From Streptomyces sp. V1I1 (lineage in GTDB: Bacteria; Actinomycetota; Actinomycetes; Streptomycetales; Streptomycetaceae), in the NCBI RefSeq assembly GCF_030817355.1, contig NZ_JAUSZH010000001.1:310001-374000 (forward strand): a DNA stretch of 64,000 nucleotides. The letters are read 5' to 3'. This document shows positions 7,778 to 32,605 of the stretch, piece by piece. The notes beneath the pieces were generated by a model, which did no database searches, had not been told where the DNA came from, and worked only from the letters and a program-made list of their open reading frames with translations. Each line of letters starts with the position of its first letter. The stretch's first letter is position 1. The translations under genes and the position numbers were made by a program.

Positions 7778-7999
7778 GGGCTGTTCACCGCCTCCGCCGG
7801 GTGGTTCCACCTGTCTGCCCAGACCAGCATTATTCGTGAAGGCCCCAACCGCGACTACTACCTCAAGAAACGAGTCCAGGGCTGCAAGTACGTCCAGGCC
7901 GTGATCGCCCTCGCCCGCCGACGAGTCGCCGTCTTTGGGGCCCTCCTACGGGACAACCGGCTCTTCACAGCCCCACCCACGGCGACAGCCGCGGCTTGA
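7778..7999 (+). pseudogene. IS110-family transposase C-terminal fragment
   Basis: An open frame ending in TGA at 7997 reads SAQTSIIREGPNRDYYLKKR, then VQAVIALARRRVAVFGALLRDN. This is the C-terminal tail of IS110/IS116-type transposases (..R.FY..KR..GK.H.QA.IALARRR..VL.A.LRD). The catalytic part is missing. It begins 30 bp after the MMPL stop. Confidence 0.75.
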
Positions 8000-15632: not shown

Positions 15633-16067
15633 ATGAACAGTGTTGAACTGACGGACGACGTCGAGGACTTTGGCCGCCTGGTCGCTCTCGTGGAGGAGAC
15701 CGGCGAGCGCGTGACCCTCACCGAGGACGGCCAGCCGGCGAGCGTGCTACTCCCGGCGGCTGAGCTGGCCGAGCTGGAGCACTGGGCGCAGCGGGCATAC
15801 GGCGCCCTGATACCCCTGCCGGACACGGCCGAGGAACGGCCGCCCGGACCGGCGCAGCACGGCCCGTACACGCGGTACGTGCACGCGGACGGCGAGCGTA
15901 TGACGTTCACCCGGGGCCGGGTGGTGGTGGCCGAACTGCGCCGTGCCGGGTGGCTTGAGTGGCTGGAGGACTGGGCGCGCAGCGGGCGGCAGGGGTATAT
16001 GGACCCGAAGCAGTCGGAGGCGTTCGCCGAGTTCCTCGCCCGTCAACCCCCCGTCGGCGAGCAGTAA
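15633..16067 (+). CDS. Phd/YefM-like antitoxin, orphan
   Basis: A 144-residue protein. The first 50 residues (SVELTDDVEDFGRLVALVEETGERVTLTEDGQPASVLLPAAELAEL) have the Phd/YefM fold pattern: a short N-terminal strand, a helix with ..LV..VEETGERV, then DG.P..VL.. and a helix. The remaining 90 residues are acidic and Trp-rich, longer than the usual antitoxin tail. No Doc, RelE or PIN-like toxin lies on either side; what follows is an IS1182 tail. Either the toxin is lost or the C-terminal part has another role. Confidence 0.65.
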   Translation: MNSVELTDDVEDFGRLVALVEETGERVTLTEDGQPASVLLPAAELAELEHWAQRAYGALIPLPDTAEERPPGPAQHGPYTRYVHADGERMTFTRGRVVVAELRRAGWLEWLEDWARSGRQGYMDPKQSEAFAEFLARQPPVGEQ

Positions 16068-21656: not shown

Positions 21657-23038
21657 TAGGGCTTTGTTAGGTGGTGTCGTAGGGCTGCCAGGGGGTGGGT
21701 TGTCGGCAGGTGGGGCAGGTGCCGGTCCAGGTGGCCAGGAGGTGTTGGAGGAGATCCAGGGCCTGGTAGAGGGTCAGGCCCTGGCAGGGGCTTTTGGGCA
21801 GGTCCGCTGTTCGGTCAGGAACAGGTGGGCGGCGGTGACGAGGGTGACGTGCCGGTGCCAGCCGGTGAACGAGCGGCCCTCGAAGTGGTCGAGGCCGAGG
21901 GTGGTCTTCAGCTCGCGGTAGTCGTGCTCGATGCGCCACCGCAGTTTCGCGATGCGGACAAGGTCGCGGGCGGGGATGTCTGCGGGCAGGTTCGAGATCC
22001 AGTACTTGACCGGCTCGTCCTCGCCTTCGGGCCACTGGGCGATGAGCCAGGTCAGCGGGATCGTGCCGTCGGTGGCGGGCTTGGGCCGCCGCCCCGCGAG
22101 ACGGATCCTCACAAGAACGAAGTGCGAGCTCATCGCGGCTTTGGAGCCCCTGCGCCAGGTCAGGGTTCGTCCCTGGCGTCGTCCGGCGGCCAGCACGTGA
22201 TCCCGTAAGGACACCGGGCGGGTGCGGTAACGCGGAAGGGGCCTGGGCCCCAGGCCGCCATAGGCAGGCTGGTGGGGTTCGGCATCCTCACTGTGGGCGG
22301 TCATTTCGGCCTTGGCCTGCAGGACGTAGGCCAGGCCGCGGTCTTCCAGGCCGCGGCGGAAGTCGGCGTTGGCGCCGTATCCGGTGTCCGCGACCAGCAC
22401 CGCCGGCTTCAGCCCGGTGCCGGCCAGGTCGTCGAGCATCTCCAGCGCCAGCTGCCACTTCGGGCGGTGATGCTCGTCATCAGGGATGCGACAGCGTTCC
22501 CGACGGCTGGCCGCTTCTGGCGTGTCCCAGCTCTCGGGAAGGAACAAACGCCAGGACAGCGGACACGAGGCGGTGTCGGAAGCGGCGTGGACGCTGACGC
22601 CGATCTGGCAGTTACCGACCTTGCCCAGGGTGCCCGAGTACTGCCGGGCCACCCCGGGCGACGAGATGCCGTCCTTCGGGAACCCGGTGTCGTCCACCAC
22701 CCACGCCTGAGGACGGACCACCCGCACGGCCCGCCACGCCAACCGGGCCCGCACCGCGTCAAAGGCCCAGGTGGAGGACGTGATGAACTGCTGAAGCTGC
22801 TGGTGGTCCACCCCCAGGCGCCCGGCCATCGGCTGCATCGACTTACGCCGGCCGTCCAGCAGCAGCCCCCGCAGATACAGGGCACCCTTCTCACGCTGAT
22901 CCCGCCGCACCAGCGGCGCGAACACCTCCCCACCGAACTCCTCCAACCGGACACGACACGAAGCGAGTTCCCCGACCCTCATACCAACAGCGAACTACCA
23001 GACACCCAACGCGACAAGACCCACCTAACAAAGCCCTA
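21657..23038. mobile_element. IS701-family insertion sequence, copy A
   Basis: A 1382-bp complete element. Its ends are the inverted repeats TAGGGCTTTGTTAGGTGG (left) and the complement at 23021-23038, flanked on both sides by CTAG (21653-21656 and 23039-23042), a 4-bp target duplication. It was inserted at the CTAG beside the IS5 terminal repeat. A second copy of the same size lies inverted at 58037-59418. Confidence 0.92.
21774..22982 (-). CDS. IS701-family transposase, copy A
   Basis: A 402-residue DDE transposase (DUF4338/IS701 type). WVVDDTGFPKDGISSPGVARQYSGTLGKVGNCQIGVS holds the first Asp, VLVADTGYGANADFRRGL the second, and WRIEHDYRELKTTLGLDHFEGRS the catalytic Glu with the YREL/K signature. 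Intact, with the same protein sequence as the copy at 58093, so transposition was recent and the element is probably active. Confidence 0.95.
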   Translation of the reverse strand: MRVGELASCRVRLEEFGGEVFAPLVRRDQREKGALYLRGLLLDGRRKSMQPMAGRLGVDHQQLQQFITSSTWAFDAVRARLAWRAVRVVRPQAWVVDDTGFPKDGISSPGVARQYSGTLGKVGNCQIGVSVHAASDTASCPLSWRLFLPESWDTPEAASRRERCRIPDDEHHRPKWQLALEMLDDLAGTGLKPAVLVADTGYGANADFRRGLEDRGLAYVLQAKAEMTAHSEDAEPHQPAYGGLGPRPLPRYRTRPVSLRDHVLAAGRRQGRTLTWRRGSKAAMSSHFVLVRIRLAGRRPKPATDGTIPLTWLIAQWPEGEDEPVKYWISNLPADIPARDLVRIAKLRWRIEHDYRELKTTLGLDHFEGRSFTGWHRHVTLVTAAHLFLTEQRTCPKAPARA

Positions 23039-23191: not shown

Positions 23192-23923
23192 ATGAGCTAC
23201 GAGCCTGAGCTGCTGCGGCCCGAAGCGGCGGTTCCGCTGGCGCCGTTGCGGGGGCTGAAGCACGTGGCGCGGCGTTACGGCACCGGGTTGAGGGGGCCGG
23301 AGTTCGCCGGGGCGCAGCTCATTGGGGCCGGGTGGGCGGCGGTGCCGCTCGCCGTGGCGCTGGTGGGGCTGCTGGTGCCGTACGTGCGGGCCCCCGCGCT
23401 GGCGTCTGCGGTGGTTCTCGGGATAGGTGTGCTGGCAAGGTCGCTTCTTCTGGTCGCCTTCGAGCGGCTTCAGCATGCGTACGAACCGCACTGGCTGGCG
23501 GATCAGACCACCGCCCTGCGCGGGCACGACTTCCCCTTGTTGCGCTGCGCAGTCCCCTCGGACGAGGCACCGGGCCCGCCCCGGGTCTGCGACCTGACCA
23601 GCGGCGACCAGGTCGGGGAGTTGCTCGGACGACGGGAGCGGGAGCGGGCCGCCGACACCTTCTCTCGGGCCACCCTTCAGTTCGTCTGCGCCGCCGGCCG
23701 CGGTGAGTTGGTCGTAGCCGAGGTGCGCCGGGAGTTGGCCGAGCTGGAGTTCCTGCCAGTACGGCCCGGAGCCCCCCAGGCCTGGGTCCGCTTCCCTGAG
23801 GCGTGCTATCTGCCGCTGCCCGACACCGGGCGGCGGCCTGCCCAGCGGGCCTACTGGGTGCTGTCCGGGCCGGTGCTGGTGTCGGCGGCGGAGGCGACGG
23901 CCCGGGCCGGTTCGGCCAGGTGA
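23192..23923 (+). CDS. Uncharacterised two-helix membrane protein
   Basis: A 243-residue protein, not recognised. Residues 45-92 form two membrane helices (LIGAGWAAVPLAVALVGLLV and SAVVLGIGVLARSLLLVAF). The C-terminal 140 residues are soluble and contain VCDLTSGDQVGELLGRRERE and a Trp/Phe-rich segment, QAWVRFPEACYLPLPDTGRR. Its last 73 bp overlap the 3' end of the NACHT gene on the other strand, so each could influence the other. Codon bias is high-GC3 as in real genes. It could be a regulator or immunity partner of the NACHT operon; that is a guess. Confidence 0.6.
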   Translation: MSYEPELLRPEAAVPLAPLRGLKHVARRYGTGLRGPEFAGAQLIGAGWAAVPLAVALVGLLVPYVRAPALASAVVLGIGVLARSLLLVAFERLQHAYEPHWLADQTTALRGHDFPLLRCAVPSDEAPGPPRVCDLTSGDQVGELLGRRERERAADTFSRATLQFVCAAGRGELVVAEVRRELAELEFLPVRPGAPQAWVRFPEACYLPLPDTGRRPAQRAYWVLSGPVLVSAAEATARAGSAR

Positions 23924-25917
23924 CGTTGAAGCAGCCTGTGCCGGAACTCGTAGTAGCCGTTCATCTGCCGCAGCACCCCCCGCTCACGCGCGTCCTCCAC
24001 GAACGCCATCAGCCGCCTCGGCGTATGCCCGCGTACAGCCAGCCAGCTGCGGGTGGCCACAAACCGCCCCCATGAGCTGGACCCGATCGCCATCAGCCCG
24101 AGCCCGGTGGCGCTGAGCAGCGCACCGCCGGCGGCACCCATCAGCGCTTCGATGGCGGTGGGCAGTTCGTCGATCAGGGTGACGTCGTCGAGCTGCGGGG
24201 TGCGCCGGCCGTCCTTGATGGACGCGCCGAGGTAGGCGCCGGTGAGCGCCCCGGGTACGCCGCCAGCCAGCCAGGCGTAGAGCACCGCGGAGCGGTCGGA
24301 GCGGAGCAGGGTGGTGGGGGTGACGGCCTCCATCGGGTCGCTGGGTTCGCTGAAGTAGCGGGTGGCGGCGAAAGCGATGCCGCTCAGCACACCACCGATC
24401 ACGGCGTACTGGGGTTTCTCGTAAAGGAACCAGACGATCACCGCGCAGGCAGCGCCGCCCACCACGCCGAAGCCGAGCACCCGCTGCAGTGCGTGCGAGG
24501 AAGGCGGTCGTACGGACCGGAGCCGCGGCTTGGCGCGGCGCGGATCGTCCTGGGGCACCAGCTCCACCACAAGCGCGCCAACCAGCGCAGCGCCCAGCCC
24601 GATCCACAGGCCCAGCAGCGGGCGTTTGAAGAGGGAGAAGAGCGCGATCGCCGCAGCCGAGCAGCCGATCGCCGCGTTGACCACGGCGAGCGTCAGATAC
24701 ACCCCCCGCGGCACCGCCCGGTGCAGCTGCCACCAGGCCAGTCTGCCGGTGCCGGAGTCGACATTCCGGGCGAGGAAGGCAAGATAGCGGCAGGCCTCGT
24801 CGGCGTCGACGTCACCGCGCCGGTAGGCCCGGGTGATGAAGGCCCCCAGCAGATGCCGTTTGATCCGCTCCTCGGCCTCCGGCCCGGTGGCCGAGAGCAT
24901 CTCCCCGGGCAGCGAACCGCCGAGCGCCACGGCCAGGGAGAGCATGAACGGTGTCTCCAGCGCCTGCGCCAACGGTCCGCCCGGCCCGGCGTCCAGGGCG
25001 GAGACCAGCGGCTCCAGGACCGGGCCAGGGCGGGCGGTCTCCAGGACCCCACGGGCCTCGTCCGCACGCAGCGGCTGCAGCCGTACGACGAGCGCCTCGC
25101 TCAGCACCCCGTCGGCGTCCAGCCGGGCGAAGTCGGCGGTGCGGCAGGTCAGGATGAAGGACCGGCCCTCCAGTTCGTCCTCGATACGCCGCAGTGCGGT
25201 GGCCGGGTCGGAGACCTCGTCCAGTCCGTCTAGAACGGGCATTACGCAGTGCTGGACAAGCTCGGCGGCGATCCGGCGGCTGCGCATCTGGTCGGCGAGG
25301 GCCGGGTAGTTGGCGGTGAGCTCGTCCGTCATCCAGTCCATGAGCGGGCGGGCCGGGTTCCAGGAGGAGAGATGGAAGAGCACGGGAACGGCTGGGCCCG
25401 CCGGTTCGGCGAGCTCCAGCGTGGCCAGTACACAGACCGCCGTCTTTCCGGCGCCCGGCTCCCCCGTCACCACCAGCCGGGACAGACTGCCCGCGCGGAT
25501 GTGCCGGGCGAAGGCGCCCGTCAGCTGGTCCAGTACGCCCTCGTCGGGCAGTTCGGCGGCCAGCCGCGAGACCCGCTCCGAACCGGACCGGCGCCGCCAT
25601 CGCACCGCCATCCGACGCTCCGGGAAGAGGCCGCGGTGACGGCTCTCCTCCGCCCAGTCCTTGGCCACCTTCCGCGCCAGCGCCGGCACCTGCGCTGCCA
25701 CCGCCTCGTCCAGCGTGGCTGGCGGACGGCGGCCGGCCTGCAGCACGGTCGTCACGATGGTGGCGACGGTGAGTACCACGGGGATGAGGGAGGCCCACAG
25801 GTCCAGCGCCTTCAAATCGCCGCTCCTGATACCGCATACAGCCACGACGAGCGTGGCGGCCAGGATTATGGCGAGCGCGGTGTAGACGACCACCGTGAGC
25901 GCCTGCCGGGCCCTCAT
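23851..25917 (-). CDS. Membrane NACHT-domain NTPase
   Basis: A 688-residue STAND-class ATPase. Two N-terminal membrane helices (about residues 8-29 and 40-60) lead to a linker, then a NACHT domain: Walker A GEPGAGKTA (152-160), Walker B MPVLDGLDEVSD (226-237) with the Asp pair and sensor region FILTCRTADFARL. The winged-helix part (AFITRAYRRGDVDADEACRYLAFLARNV) is followed by several membrane helices in the C-terminal third and a short soluble tail. NACHT proteins of bacteria act as ligand-gated switches, often in antiphage defence. ATG 25917 overlaps the stop of the isoprenoid-synthase-like gene (ATGA), so translation is coupled. Confidence 0.88.
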   Translation of the reverse strand: MRARQALTVVVYTALAIILAATLVVAVCGIRSGDLKALDLWASLIPVVLTVATIVTTVLQAGRRPPATLDEAVAAQVPALARKVAKDWAEESRHRGLFPERRMAVRWRRRSGSERVSRLAAELPDEGVLDQLTGAFARHIRAGSLSRLVVTGEPGAGKTAVCVLATLELAEPAGPAVPVLFHLSSWNPARPLMDWMTDELTANYPALADQMRSRRIAAELVQHCVMPVLDGLDEVSDPATALRRIEDELEGRSFILTCRTADFARLDADGVLSEALVVRLQPLRADEARGVLETARPGPVLEPLVSALDAGPGGPLAQALETPFMLSLAVALGGSLPGEMLSATGPEAEERIKRHLLGAFITRAYRRGDVDADEACRYLAFLARNVDSGTGRLAWWQLHRAVPRGVYLTLAVVNAAIGCSAAAIALFSLFKRPLLGLWIGLGAALVGALVVELVPQDDPRRAKPRLRSVRPPSSHALQRVLGFGVVGGAACAVIVWFLYEKPQYAVIGGVLSGIAFAATRYFSEPSDPMEAVTPTTLLRSDRSAVLYAWLAGGVPGALTGAYLGASIKDGRRTPQLDDVTLIDELPTAIEALMGAAGGALLSATGLGLMAIGSSSWGRFVATRSWLAVRGHTPRRLMAFVEDARERGVLRQMNGYYEFRHRLLQRHLAEPARAVASAADTSTGPDSTQ

Positions 25918-26897
25918 GGCAGGGTCCCCGGTCCGGCCGGCGGGAGGGCGTCCGCACCGCGGGAGAGGAAGGCCAGTACGGCGGACCTCCGGGCGGGGCG
26001 GCGCGCCAGTCGGCCGAGGACGGGGAGCCTGCGGCCGACCCACGACTTGAGGAGCAGGAAGTAGAGCATCCCGCAGTACGGTCCGGTGGACCGGCGGCCG
26101 TAACACGCCATCAGCCGCGGCCGCATGGCGCGCAGCTGCCCCGCGATATGCGGCAGGGTGACCACGCCGAGGCCGGCGAGCGTGGTCACGCCGTGGGCTC
26201 GGTCGAGGTCGACGTCCATGTAGTCGTCGAGGGATTGCAGGGCCTCGCCCAGATCCATGGCGAGCTCGCGTTCGGCGGGCTCCAAACTGGGTTTGACGAT
26301 GCTGCACAGGATCAGGTTGGCTGCGCTGCCCTTACCGCGGGTGATCTTCTCCAGTACATCGACGGGGACGTCCGCTTCGCGCTGGCGGCGGGAGAGGACC
26401 TGGTATTCGTGCAGCGAGGCGAGCGCCATGAACACGGACTCGTCGGGGGTGTGGCCGAGTCTGCGCTCGATCTCGTACACCAGCCGTCCGAGGAGCAGTT
26501 CGGCGTCCGTGCCCGCTACGAATGGCCGATTGCCCAGTAGGTCGGCGAGGCGGGCATCTGCGGAGGGATCGACGTCGCCGTCGATGAGGTCGTCGTAGAG
26601 CCGGGTGACTCCTCCGGCTAGGACGGCGACGTCCAGTTGGAGCGTACGTCCGGTGAGGCGGGCGTAACCGAGCATGGCCAGGCCGAACTTCACGCTCATC
26701 GCGCGTAGGGACCGGTCAGCTCGGTCGCGCTCGCGCGGGTCTGTGAGGGTTTCCGTCAAGAACGGGGCGACGACCTGCTCGTATGCCTGAGTGAGTCCAG
26801 GCAACGAACGGTATACGGCCATAGCGGCCGAGGGTAACCCGGTGACCATCCTCAGTGAGCGAAAGAGCGCACCGACCTCCGTGAACCTATGCCCCAT
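25914..26897 (-). CDS. Class 1 isoprenoid-synthase-like protein
   Basis: A 327-residue all-helical protein with the two Asp-rich metal and diphosphate sites of trans-isoprenyl synthases: VTRLYDDLIDGDVD (DDLID at 102-106) and ALQSLDDYMDVDLDRAHG (about 221-235), plus ITRGKGSAANLIL between them. No second-substrate basic patch can be assigned by eye, so it may be a prenyl transferase, a terpene-type cyclase or a binding protein. ATG 26897 is chosen over an upstream ATG because GGGGGGAG lies just before it. It is first in an overlapping operon with the NACHT ATPase, an unusual pairing. Confidence 0.8.
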   Translation of the reverse strand: MGHRFTEVGALFRSLRMVTGLPSAAMAVYRSLPGLTQAYEQVVAPFLTETLTDPRERDRADRSLRAMSVKFGLAMLGYARLTGRTLQLDVAVLAGGVTRLYDDLIDGDVDPSADARLADLLGNRPFVAGTDAELLLGRLVYEIERRLGHTPDESVFMALASLHEYQVLSRRQREADVPVDVLEKITRGKGSAANLILCSIVKPSLEPAERELAMDLGEALQSLDDYMDVDLDRAHGVTTLAGLGVVTLPHIAGQLRAMRPRLMACYGRRSTGPYCGMLYFLLLKSWVGRRLPVLGRLARRPARRSAVLAFLSRGADALPPAGPGTLP

Positions 26898-31358: not shown

Positions 31359-31685
31359 ATGGCACGTCCTTCCCCTTACCCCCTTGAGCTGCGCAAGCGC
31401 GCGGTCCGCATGGTCGCCGAGGTGCGGCCGGAGTACGACACCGAGTGGTCCGCGATGAAGGCGGTCGCCGCCAAGCTGGGGATCGGGACGACCGAGACTT
31501 TGCGCAAGTGGGTCCGCCAGGACCAGATCGACAACGGGGCCCGGCCTGGCGTCACGACCGATGAGTCTGCCCAGGTCAAAGCGTTGAAGAAGGAAGTCGC
31601 CGAGCTCAAGCGGGCGAATGAGATCCTCAAGGCCGCTTCGGCTTTCTTCGCGGCCGAGCTCGACCGGCCACATCTGCGCTCGTGA
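31359..31685 (+). CDS. IS3 transposase OrfA
   Basis: A 108-residue HTH protein, YPLELRKRAVRMVAEVRPEY then AVAAKLGIGTTETLRKWVRQ, with a leucine-zipper tail (VKALKKEVAELKRANEILKAASAFF). It recognises the inverted repeats. Its TGA overlaps the GTG of orfB by four bases; a slippage site for an OrfAB fusion is not obvious. Confidence 0.92.
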   Translation: MARPSPYPLELRKRAVRMVAEVRPEYDTEWSAMKAVAAKLGIGTTETLRKWVRQDQIDNGARPGVTTDESAQVKALKKEVAELKRANEILKAASAFFAAELDRPHLRS

Positions 31686-32605
31686 CCTTCGTCGACGAGA
31701 ACCGGGACCGCTTCGGCGGCGTCGAGCCGATCTGCACCGTTCTCAACGAGCACGGTGTCGGTATCTCCCCCTCCACCTACTACGCAGCCAAGGCCCGGCC
31801 TCCGTCGCTTCGGGCGACCCGGGACGCGGAACTGAAGGCACTGATCCAGCAGGTGTTCGACGCCAACTACCGCGTCTACGGGGCCCGGAAGATCTGGCGC
31901 GAGCTGAACCGACAAGGTCATGCGGTGGCCCGGTGCACCGTCGAGCGCCTGATGCGCGAGCTCGGCCTCGCCGGCGCCGTCCGCGGCAAGAAGGTCATCA
32001 CTACGGTCACCGACCCGGCCGCCGGCCGGGCCCCCGACCTGGTCGACCGGGACTTCGTCGCCCAGGCGCCGAACCGCTGCTGGGTCGCGGACTTCACCCA
32101 CATCGCCACCTGGGCCGGGGTCGTCTACATCGCGTTCGTCGTGGACACCTTCTCCCGCCGCATCGTCGGCTGGTCGGCGGCCACGACCAAACACACCGAA
32201 CTGGTCCTGGCCGCACTGGAGATGGGCCTATGGCAGCGCGATCGGGAAGGCAGTCCGCACCAACCCGGGCAGCTGATCCATCACAGCGACGCGGGCAGTC
32301 AGTACACCTCGTTCAAGCTGGCCACCCATCTCCAAGGCGAGGGCATAGCGGCGTCCATCGGATCAGTCGGCGACGCCTACGACAATGCCCTGATGGAGTC
32401 CACGATCGGTCTTTTCAAGACCGAGTTGATCAAGCCTCAGCGGCCCTGGAAGACGCTGTCCGAGGTCGAGTTGGCCACCGCCGAATGGATCGACTGGTAC
32501 AACCACCGCCGACTTCACGGTGAGATCGGCCACGTCCCACCCGCCGAATACGAAGCCCACCACTACCTGACAGCCACAAAACACCAGGTCACAGTCACGC
32601 CATAG
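31682..32605 (+). CDS. IS3 transposase OrfB (DDE)
   Basis: A 307-residue integrase-core protein. HTH_21 region FGGVEPICTVLNEHGVGISP, then the catalytic triad: WVADFTHIATW (Asp), IHHSDAGSQYTS (Asp) and DNALMESTIGLFKTEL (Glu), 35 residues after the second Asp as in IS3. Intact. Confidence 0.93.
   Translation: MTFVDENRDRFGGVEPICTVLNEHGVGISPSTYYAAKARPPSLRATRDAELKALIQQVFDANYRVYGARKIWRELNRQGHAVARCTVERLMRELGLAGAVRGKKVITTVTDPAAGRAPDLVDRDFVAQAPNRCWVADFTHIATWAGVVYIAFVVDTFSRRIVGWSAATTKHTELVLAALEMGLWQRDREGSPHQPGQLIHHSDAGSQYTSFKLATHLQGEGIAASIGSVGDAYDNALMESTIGLFKTELIKPQRPWKTLSEVELATAEWIDWYNHRRLHGEIGHVPPAEYEAHHYLTATKHQVTVTP

Follow-up and report, generated by a model that had tools for sequence, protein, structure and literature searches.

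A NACHT ATPase gene adjoining an isoprenoid-synthase-like gene, often with a third convergent gene, in Streptomyces sp. V1I1 and related loci

We analysed a 64,000-nucleotide stretch of the Streptomyces sp. V1I1 genome (positions 310,001 to 374,000 of contig NZ_JAUSZH010000001.1, called the window below) in which a gene for a class I isoprenoid-synthase-like enzyme lies next to a gene for a NACHT ATPase with predicted membrane helices. The two genes are the constant part of a unit that we found in 14 distinct loci, and a third gene, convergent on the NACHT gene, frequently joins them. Our tentative reading, at somewhat less than even confidence, is that the NACHT protein is a STAND switch in the membrane whose action is linked to an isoprenoid lipid; the unit's own enzyme would handle this lipid, and the third protein would be a membrane partner. 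The reading rests on the co-occurrence of the genes, their adjacency through rearrangement, the kept catalytic and ATPase motifs and the constraint on the membrane bundle of the enzyme-linked NACHT clade and, as predictions, on the isoprenoid-synthase fold and the membrane helices. The type of NACHT protein is known, as is the superfamily to which the enzyme belongs. A literature search returned no description of such a combination and no example of an isoprenoid signal class for an NLR-type receptor, in agreement with a preliminary description of this DNA, which had reported no described system with the pairing.

Recurrence, gene order and spread of the unit

In order to assess the pairing, 394 Streptomycetaceae genomes were searched separately with the enzyme alignment and with the NACHT protein alone. 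The enzyme search, which scored 5 candidates in each genome listed, gave matches in 9 genomes. The NACHT search, which scored 2 candidates per genome, gave matches in 197, of which only 7 exceeded 260 bits, the next best scoring 166.6 bits. These 7 genomes are exactly the enzyme-positive ones minus G161, whose enzyme relatives lie in another cluster, and G224 (locus L026), which has a 43-residue match at E 1e-3. Neither the enzyme nor the third gene was found within about 1.5 kb of the weaker NACHT matches in any of 23 loci. The pairing is thus conserved and specific to one NACHT clade. Usual separation of the homologues, or another usual partner of the NACHT gene, had been named beforehand as evidence that would count against the pairing; we checked for both, and the pairing was not refuted. 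Searches of a protein database, scoring only the best 7,995-7,999 word-sharing candidates, listed 90 enzyme relatives and 79 NACHT relatives, with a gap in the NACHT scores between 419 and 187 bits. The longest contig of 27 of the 57 NACHT clusters above this gap has exactly the length of that of some enzyme cluster, which suggests that these 27 lie on the same contigs as enzyme clusters.

The distinct loci that were read (the window, L003-L009, L021-L024, L061 and L062) were reached mostly through the enzyme, and loci of one genome were counted once. Loci L013 and L030 are 100 % identical to L007 over the aligned lengths, as are L020 to L003 and L027 and L002 to L005. The 14 leave out L026 and also L025 of genome G161, which has enzyme relatives and no NACHT protein of the clade. 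L025 came from the same enzyme searches, and a NACHT gene therefore stands beside the enzyme gene in 14 of 15 clear enzyme loci.

The arrangement of the genes varies. The enzyme stop and the NACHT start overlap as NTGA in 8 of the 14 loci (the window, L003-L008 and L021); the two genes abut in L061, the third gene lies between them in L022-L024, the enzyme gene is divergent from the NACHT gene in L009, and in L062 the enzyme and third genes run together against the NACHT gene. The preliminary description had proposed to check whether overlap and order are conserved: adjacency holds in all 14 loci, while the four-base overlap is limited to the 8 and the order is not universal. That the genes stay adjacent through rearrangements points more strongly to a joint role than does the overlap. 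Pairwise distances of enzyme and NACHT proteins correlated with r = 0.969 (14 loci, 91 pairs), those of third and NACHT proteins with r = 0.919 and those of enzyme and third proteins with r = 0.947 (11 loci, 55 pairs each), and in each of the three comparisons none of 5000 label shuffles reached the observed value. The NACHT protein of L009 was joined from two frame-split pieces for this purpose: in Actinophytocola oryzae the gene is split over two reading frames (L009:5844-7909), as a pseudogene or through a sequencing error.

The third gene, which the preliminary description missed in taking the unit as two genes, was found in 11 of the 14 loci, always convergent on the NACHT gene with overlapping 3' ends; L003, L004 and L007 gave no match at E 0.01. 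The overlap measures 73 bases in the window and L005, 97 in L006, 103 in L008, 91 in L021, 27 in L022 and L023, 15 in L024, 44 in L009, 89 in L061 and 110 in L062. In the window the NACHT stop codon faces the codon of a conserved tyrosine, part of a Tyr-Trp pair, in the third protein, as read from the sequence and alignment. No family scored above its cut-off for this protein. Its structure was modelled with a predicted local distance difference test score (pLDDT) of 81.5 (the five models span 57.8-81.5), and comparison of the model with the PDB gave no convincing match.

The unit is rare and patchy, being present in 7 of 394 genomes of the family, 1 of 396 in a draw from the phylum and 3 of 345 in a draw from the class, the window's genome being counted in each. 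Streptomyces copies fall into two distant branches, which suggests horizontal transfer of the unit between soil bacteria. One of the branches groups with L009 and L062; tree support for this is 0.82 for the enzymes and 0.96-0.99 for the NACHT proteins (0.79 for L062 in a second NACHT tree). The plasmids, phages and viral contigs searched held no match to the unit. Three of the 14 units (L020:8144-14670, L022:2244-8991 and L023:3124-8998) lie between a MarR-like gene and galK, both named by eye. These two genes are 0.9-9.8 kb apart in 24 of the 25 Streptomyces genomes that have both, the window's included, so that two different branches of the unit appear to have used this interval for insertion.

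The enzyme and the NACHT protein

The start of the enzyme at the ATG at 26897 is backed by homologues that begin with MGQ or similar at the same alignment column. D102, D103, D224, D225 and D228 are invariant in 35 aligned enzymes and D106 is kept in at least 90 % of them; both DDxxD motifs and a lysine are kept in the enzymes of all 14 loci. The predicted fold is the all-alpha bundle of isoprenoid synthases, and with its two Asp-rich motifs the protein falls within the class I superfamily. At E 1 the window enzyme matched no family of Pfam, PF00348 (cut-off 27 bits) included, and none of NCBIfam. Among eight proteins scanned, seven of them enzyme relatives, four matched PF00348, with at best 13.3 bits against this cut-off. 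Entries for octaprenyl-diphosphate synthases (best E 0.0018) have their DDxxD motifs and lysine in register with the enzyme, a likeness to the trans-polyprenyl diphosphate synthases of PF00348. In the latter an arginine pair just after motif I serves substrate binding. The enzyme differs from them in lacking a Pfam match and this pair, which stands at the template position of chain-elongating enzymes (RR 5-6 residues after motif I) in none of the 14 enzymes; those of L009 and L007 carry an RR at a later position. Class IB terpene synthases and the MoeN5 prenyltransferase share only 14-15 % identity with the enzyme and, unlike it, are not coupled to a NACHT switch. By its motifs and predicted fold the enzyme is a member of the isoprenoid-synthase superfamily with the catalytic motifs kept, and it is probably catalytic. 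The earlier suggestion that it makes or binds a lipid seems reasonable because of this membership and these motifs, and the lipid idea also agrees with how unusually constrained the NACHT membrane bundle is (see below).

Diverged enzyme relatives were also seen in a different setting. The cluster L025:3551-13952 (G161:C51) encodes three of them together with a polyprenyl synthetase, a UbiA prenyltransferase, a methyltransferase, a glycosyltransferase and a DUF3419 protein, possibly an unusual terpenoid-lipid pathway.

The window NACHT protein matched PF05729 with 28.3 bits, above the cut-off of 26.7. Walker A and the Walker B aspartate are present in the NACHT proteins of all 14 loci, and the final glutamate of Walker B is replaced by glutamine in L005 and L062. 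A hydropathy scan of the window protein predicted N-terminal helices at residues 9-27 and 40-58 and C-terminal ones above threshold at 408-426, 433-451 and 477-495 (six C-terminal helices in L022). A short conserved F-x-H tail closes the protein after this C-terminal membrane bundle, and Pfam recognised no repeat sensor. The two Asp-rich motifs, the four-base overlap, the 688-residue length, both Walker motifs and the helices at both ends had been noted correctly in the preliminary description, and the coordinates that it gave for the pair (23851-26897) proved exact (Table 1). A second NACHT protein, with 32 % identity, is encoded outside the window near the end of the main contig of the same genome (G000:C1:6764-8851).

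The nearest relatives in our tree are enzyme-less NACHT proteins of Streptomycetaceae (for example those of L036, L040 and L043), which have the same core and the same F-x-H tail after a C-terminal region that aligns with the bundle; several carry XRE-like or other extra domains, noted by eye. Their bundle diverges fast. Mean identity in the bundle and the core was 0.51 and 0.48 among 13 enzyme-linked NACHT proteins (L009 left out), compared to 0.37 and 0.58 among relatives from 13 of the 23 enzyme-less loci (78 pairs in each group). We then binned the protein pairs by core identity, using separate pairwise alignments (L009 and gL044 left out, one pair per group outside the quoted bins). Bundle identity was 0.57 (16 clade pairs) compared to 0.35 (22 enzyme-less pairs) at core identity 0.45-0.60, 0.76 (13) compared to 0.42 (8) at 0.60-0.75, and 0.85 (6) compared to 0.55 (20) at 0.75-0.90. 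This trend suggests that the enzyme-linked bundle contacts an invariant entity, for example a lipid or a partner protein, and not a variable invader protein.

Table 1 Features of the unit in the window. Positions are those of the window; last column, basis or recurrence.
Feature	Position	Strand	Basis or recurrence
Class I isoprenoid-synthase-like enzyme, 327 residues, predicted soluble	25914..26897	-	no helix above hydropathy threshold
NACHT STAND ATPase, 688 residues	23851..25917	-	PF05729 match, Walker motifs, hydropathy
ATGA overlap, enzyme stop / NACHT start	25914..25917	-	NTGA overlap in 8/14 loci
Asp-rich motif I, DDLID, enzyme residues 102-106	26580..26594	-	DDxxD in 14/14 loci
Asp-rich motif II, DDYMD, enzyme residues 224-228	26214..26228	-	DDxxD in 14/14 loci
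Walker A, GEPGAGKT, NACHT residues 152-159	25441..25464	-	sequence, kept across loci
Walker B, LDGLDE, NACHT residues 229-234	25216..25233	-	sequence, kept across loci
Third member, 243 residues, two predicted membrane helices and C-terminal mixed alpha/beta domain	23192..23923	+	
73-base tail-to-tail overlap, NACHT / third-gene coding regions	23851..23923	.	overlap of 15-110 bases in 11/11 loci with third gene

Proposed mechanism and its alternatives

In the mechanism that we propose, the genes would form a mobile unit in which two are constant and a third is frequent. The unit would encode a NACHT protein acting as a membrane-embedded ATP switch of the STAND type and a soluble enzyme whose translation would often be coupled to that of the NACHT protein and that would bind and probably convert a ready-made prenyl diphosphate with Mg2+. 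The NACHT membrane bundle would recognise the isoprenoid product, the isoprenoid pool or the enzyme itself and so set the switch, and the third protein may be a membrane partner or a brake. Disturbance of the state of the isoprenoids or of the envelope, for instance by a phage or some other attacker, would make the switch oligomerise and act on the membrane. In this scheme the enzyme's catalysis, the kind of lipid, the way in which the signal runs, the part played by the third gene and any role in defence are inferred. A bolder version, in our judgement less likely than not, would be an NLR-like receptor with its own ligand-making or ligand-consuming isoprenoid synthase; its conserved bundle would read a terpenoid lipid that the unit itself makes or monitors, and the third protein would be a dedicated membrane subunit.

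Several points weigh against the lipid-tied switch. Enzyme relatives exist in L025 without the NACHT protein, which gave no match at E 1e-3 in 39 kb (L025 and L063), and the third gene is absent from 3 of the 14 loci. Congruent distances arise by themselves in overlapping neighbours that are inherited together. The protein pairs of the binned comparison are not independent, and at core identity 0.30-0.45 the bundle differs little (0.36 in 42 clade pairs and 0.34 in 15 enzyme-less pairs) and is at least as conserved as the core in only 9 of the 42 clade pairs. Contact with a partner protein, and not a lipid, could be the cause of the bundle constraint, and defence genes lie nearby without clear enrichment.

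The enzyme might alternatively be the effector: the NACHT protein would sense an attack and recruit or activate it, prenyl diphosphates for the cell wall and quinones would be drained, and growth would stop as an abortive defence, as other defence systems drain NAD or nucleotides. Catalytic motifs kept in all 14 loci, the absence of constant tailoring enzymes beside the unit that would hint at a finished natural product, and the patchy spread (7 of 394 genomes, in two distant Streptomyces branches) agree with this. We nevertheless consider it unlikely, as direct phage recognition would predict a fast-changing sensor, yet the presumed sensor part is conserved, and the loci have no clear defence neighbourhood. 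It is also rather improbable that the unit serves specialised membrane-lipid metabolism and not immunity, the enzyme making a terpenoid that the NACHT and third proteins move, install or regulate. Such a role is suggested by the three distant enzyme paralogues of L025 in a biosynthetic-looking cluster without a NACHT protein of the clade and by L062, where the unit is followed by two genes, one glycosyltransferase-like (blastp to L025, E 2.4e-8) and one deacetylase-like (judged by eye). However, apart from the third member no neighbour gene recurs across most loci, and NACHT proteins are switches, none being known as transporters. That the enzyme is non-catalytic, a prenyl-diphosphate-binding sensor subunit reporting the isoprenoid pool to the NACHT protein, would fit the arginine pair missing from its place in 14 of 14 enzymes; we give this little credence, as both Asp-rich motifs and the lysine are kept and terpene cyclases likewise lack that pair. 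Chance adjacency of two unrelated genes, to which the rarity of the unit (7 of 394 genomes) might point, is practically negligible: it is refuted by 14 loci in several gene orders and by the same 7 of 394 genomes returned by the separate enzyme and NACHT queries.

If the enzyme and the switch act together, the unit would be a bacterial NLR-type receptor tied to isoprenoid chemistry and, if the bolder version is true, a lipid-based counterpart of the nucleotide-signal immune systems. In systems such as CBASS and Thoeris an enzyme gene and the adjoining gene for a receptor or effector form one functional unit, and the messengers are nucleotides. The present unit resembles them in this pairing and differs in that its enzyme is one of isoprenoid chemistry and its receptor is predicted to be membrane-embedded. 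Being small and transferable, it would allow a direct test of whether a STAND ATPase senses lipids, and it gives a concrete setting to an isoprenoid-synthase-like enzyme family outside Pfam recognition.

Defence genes and other neighbours

According to an excerpt of PMC12169576, bNACHT proteins of clades 6 and 14 are phage-protective, and an excerpt of PMC13092281 describes NACHT domains as typically oligomerising on phage recognition and then activating an N-terminal effector. The window protein shares with these antiphage proteins the central NACHT ATPase with its Walker motifs and differs from them in its membrane helices at both ends, in having no fused effector domain found by Pfam, and in the separate isoprenoid enzyme and third membrane protein. 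As for known systems, the antiphage protein EruA (NF058535) was rejected, the NACHT protein scoring 29.4 bits against an equivalog cut-off of 1000. No PADLOC system fitted either: the enzyme matched no model at E 1 and the NACHT protein a single one (E 0.028, 28 residues).

Among 148 open reading frames neighbouring the units we found a type IV restriction enzyme (L005) and a type I-like DNA methyltransferase (L061:12251-14158, about 135 bases from the third gene), and neither kind among 136 control frames. The neighbours hit 32 PADLOC families and the controls hit 4; 22 of the traced family matches came from two proteins, the L061 methyltransferase and a RecD-like helicase of L006. Because of the hand-picked controls and so few loci, the neighbourhood counts neither show nor exclude a defence setting. 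An antiphage function is plausible but unsupported. Elsewhere in the window, a Phd/YefM-like antitoxin gene lies at 15633-16067 (PF02604 below cut-off). The region is flanked by an IS701-family transposase gene (21774-22982) and a two-ORF (open reading frame) transposase with HTH_Tnp_1 and rve domains (31410-32605).

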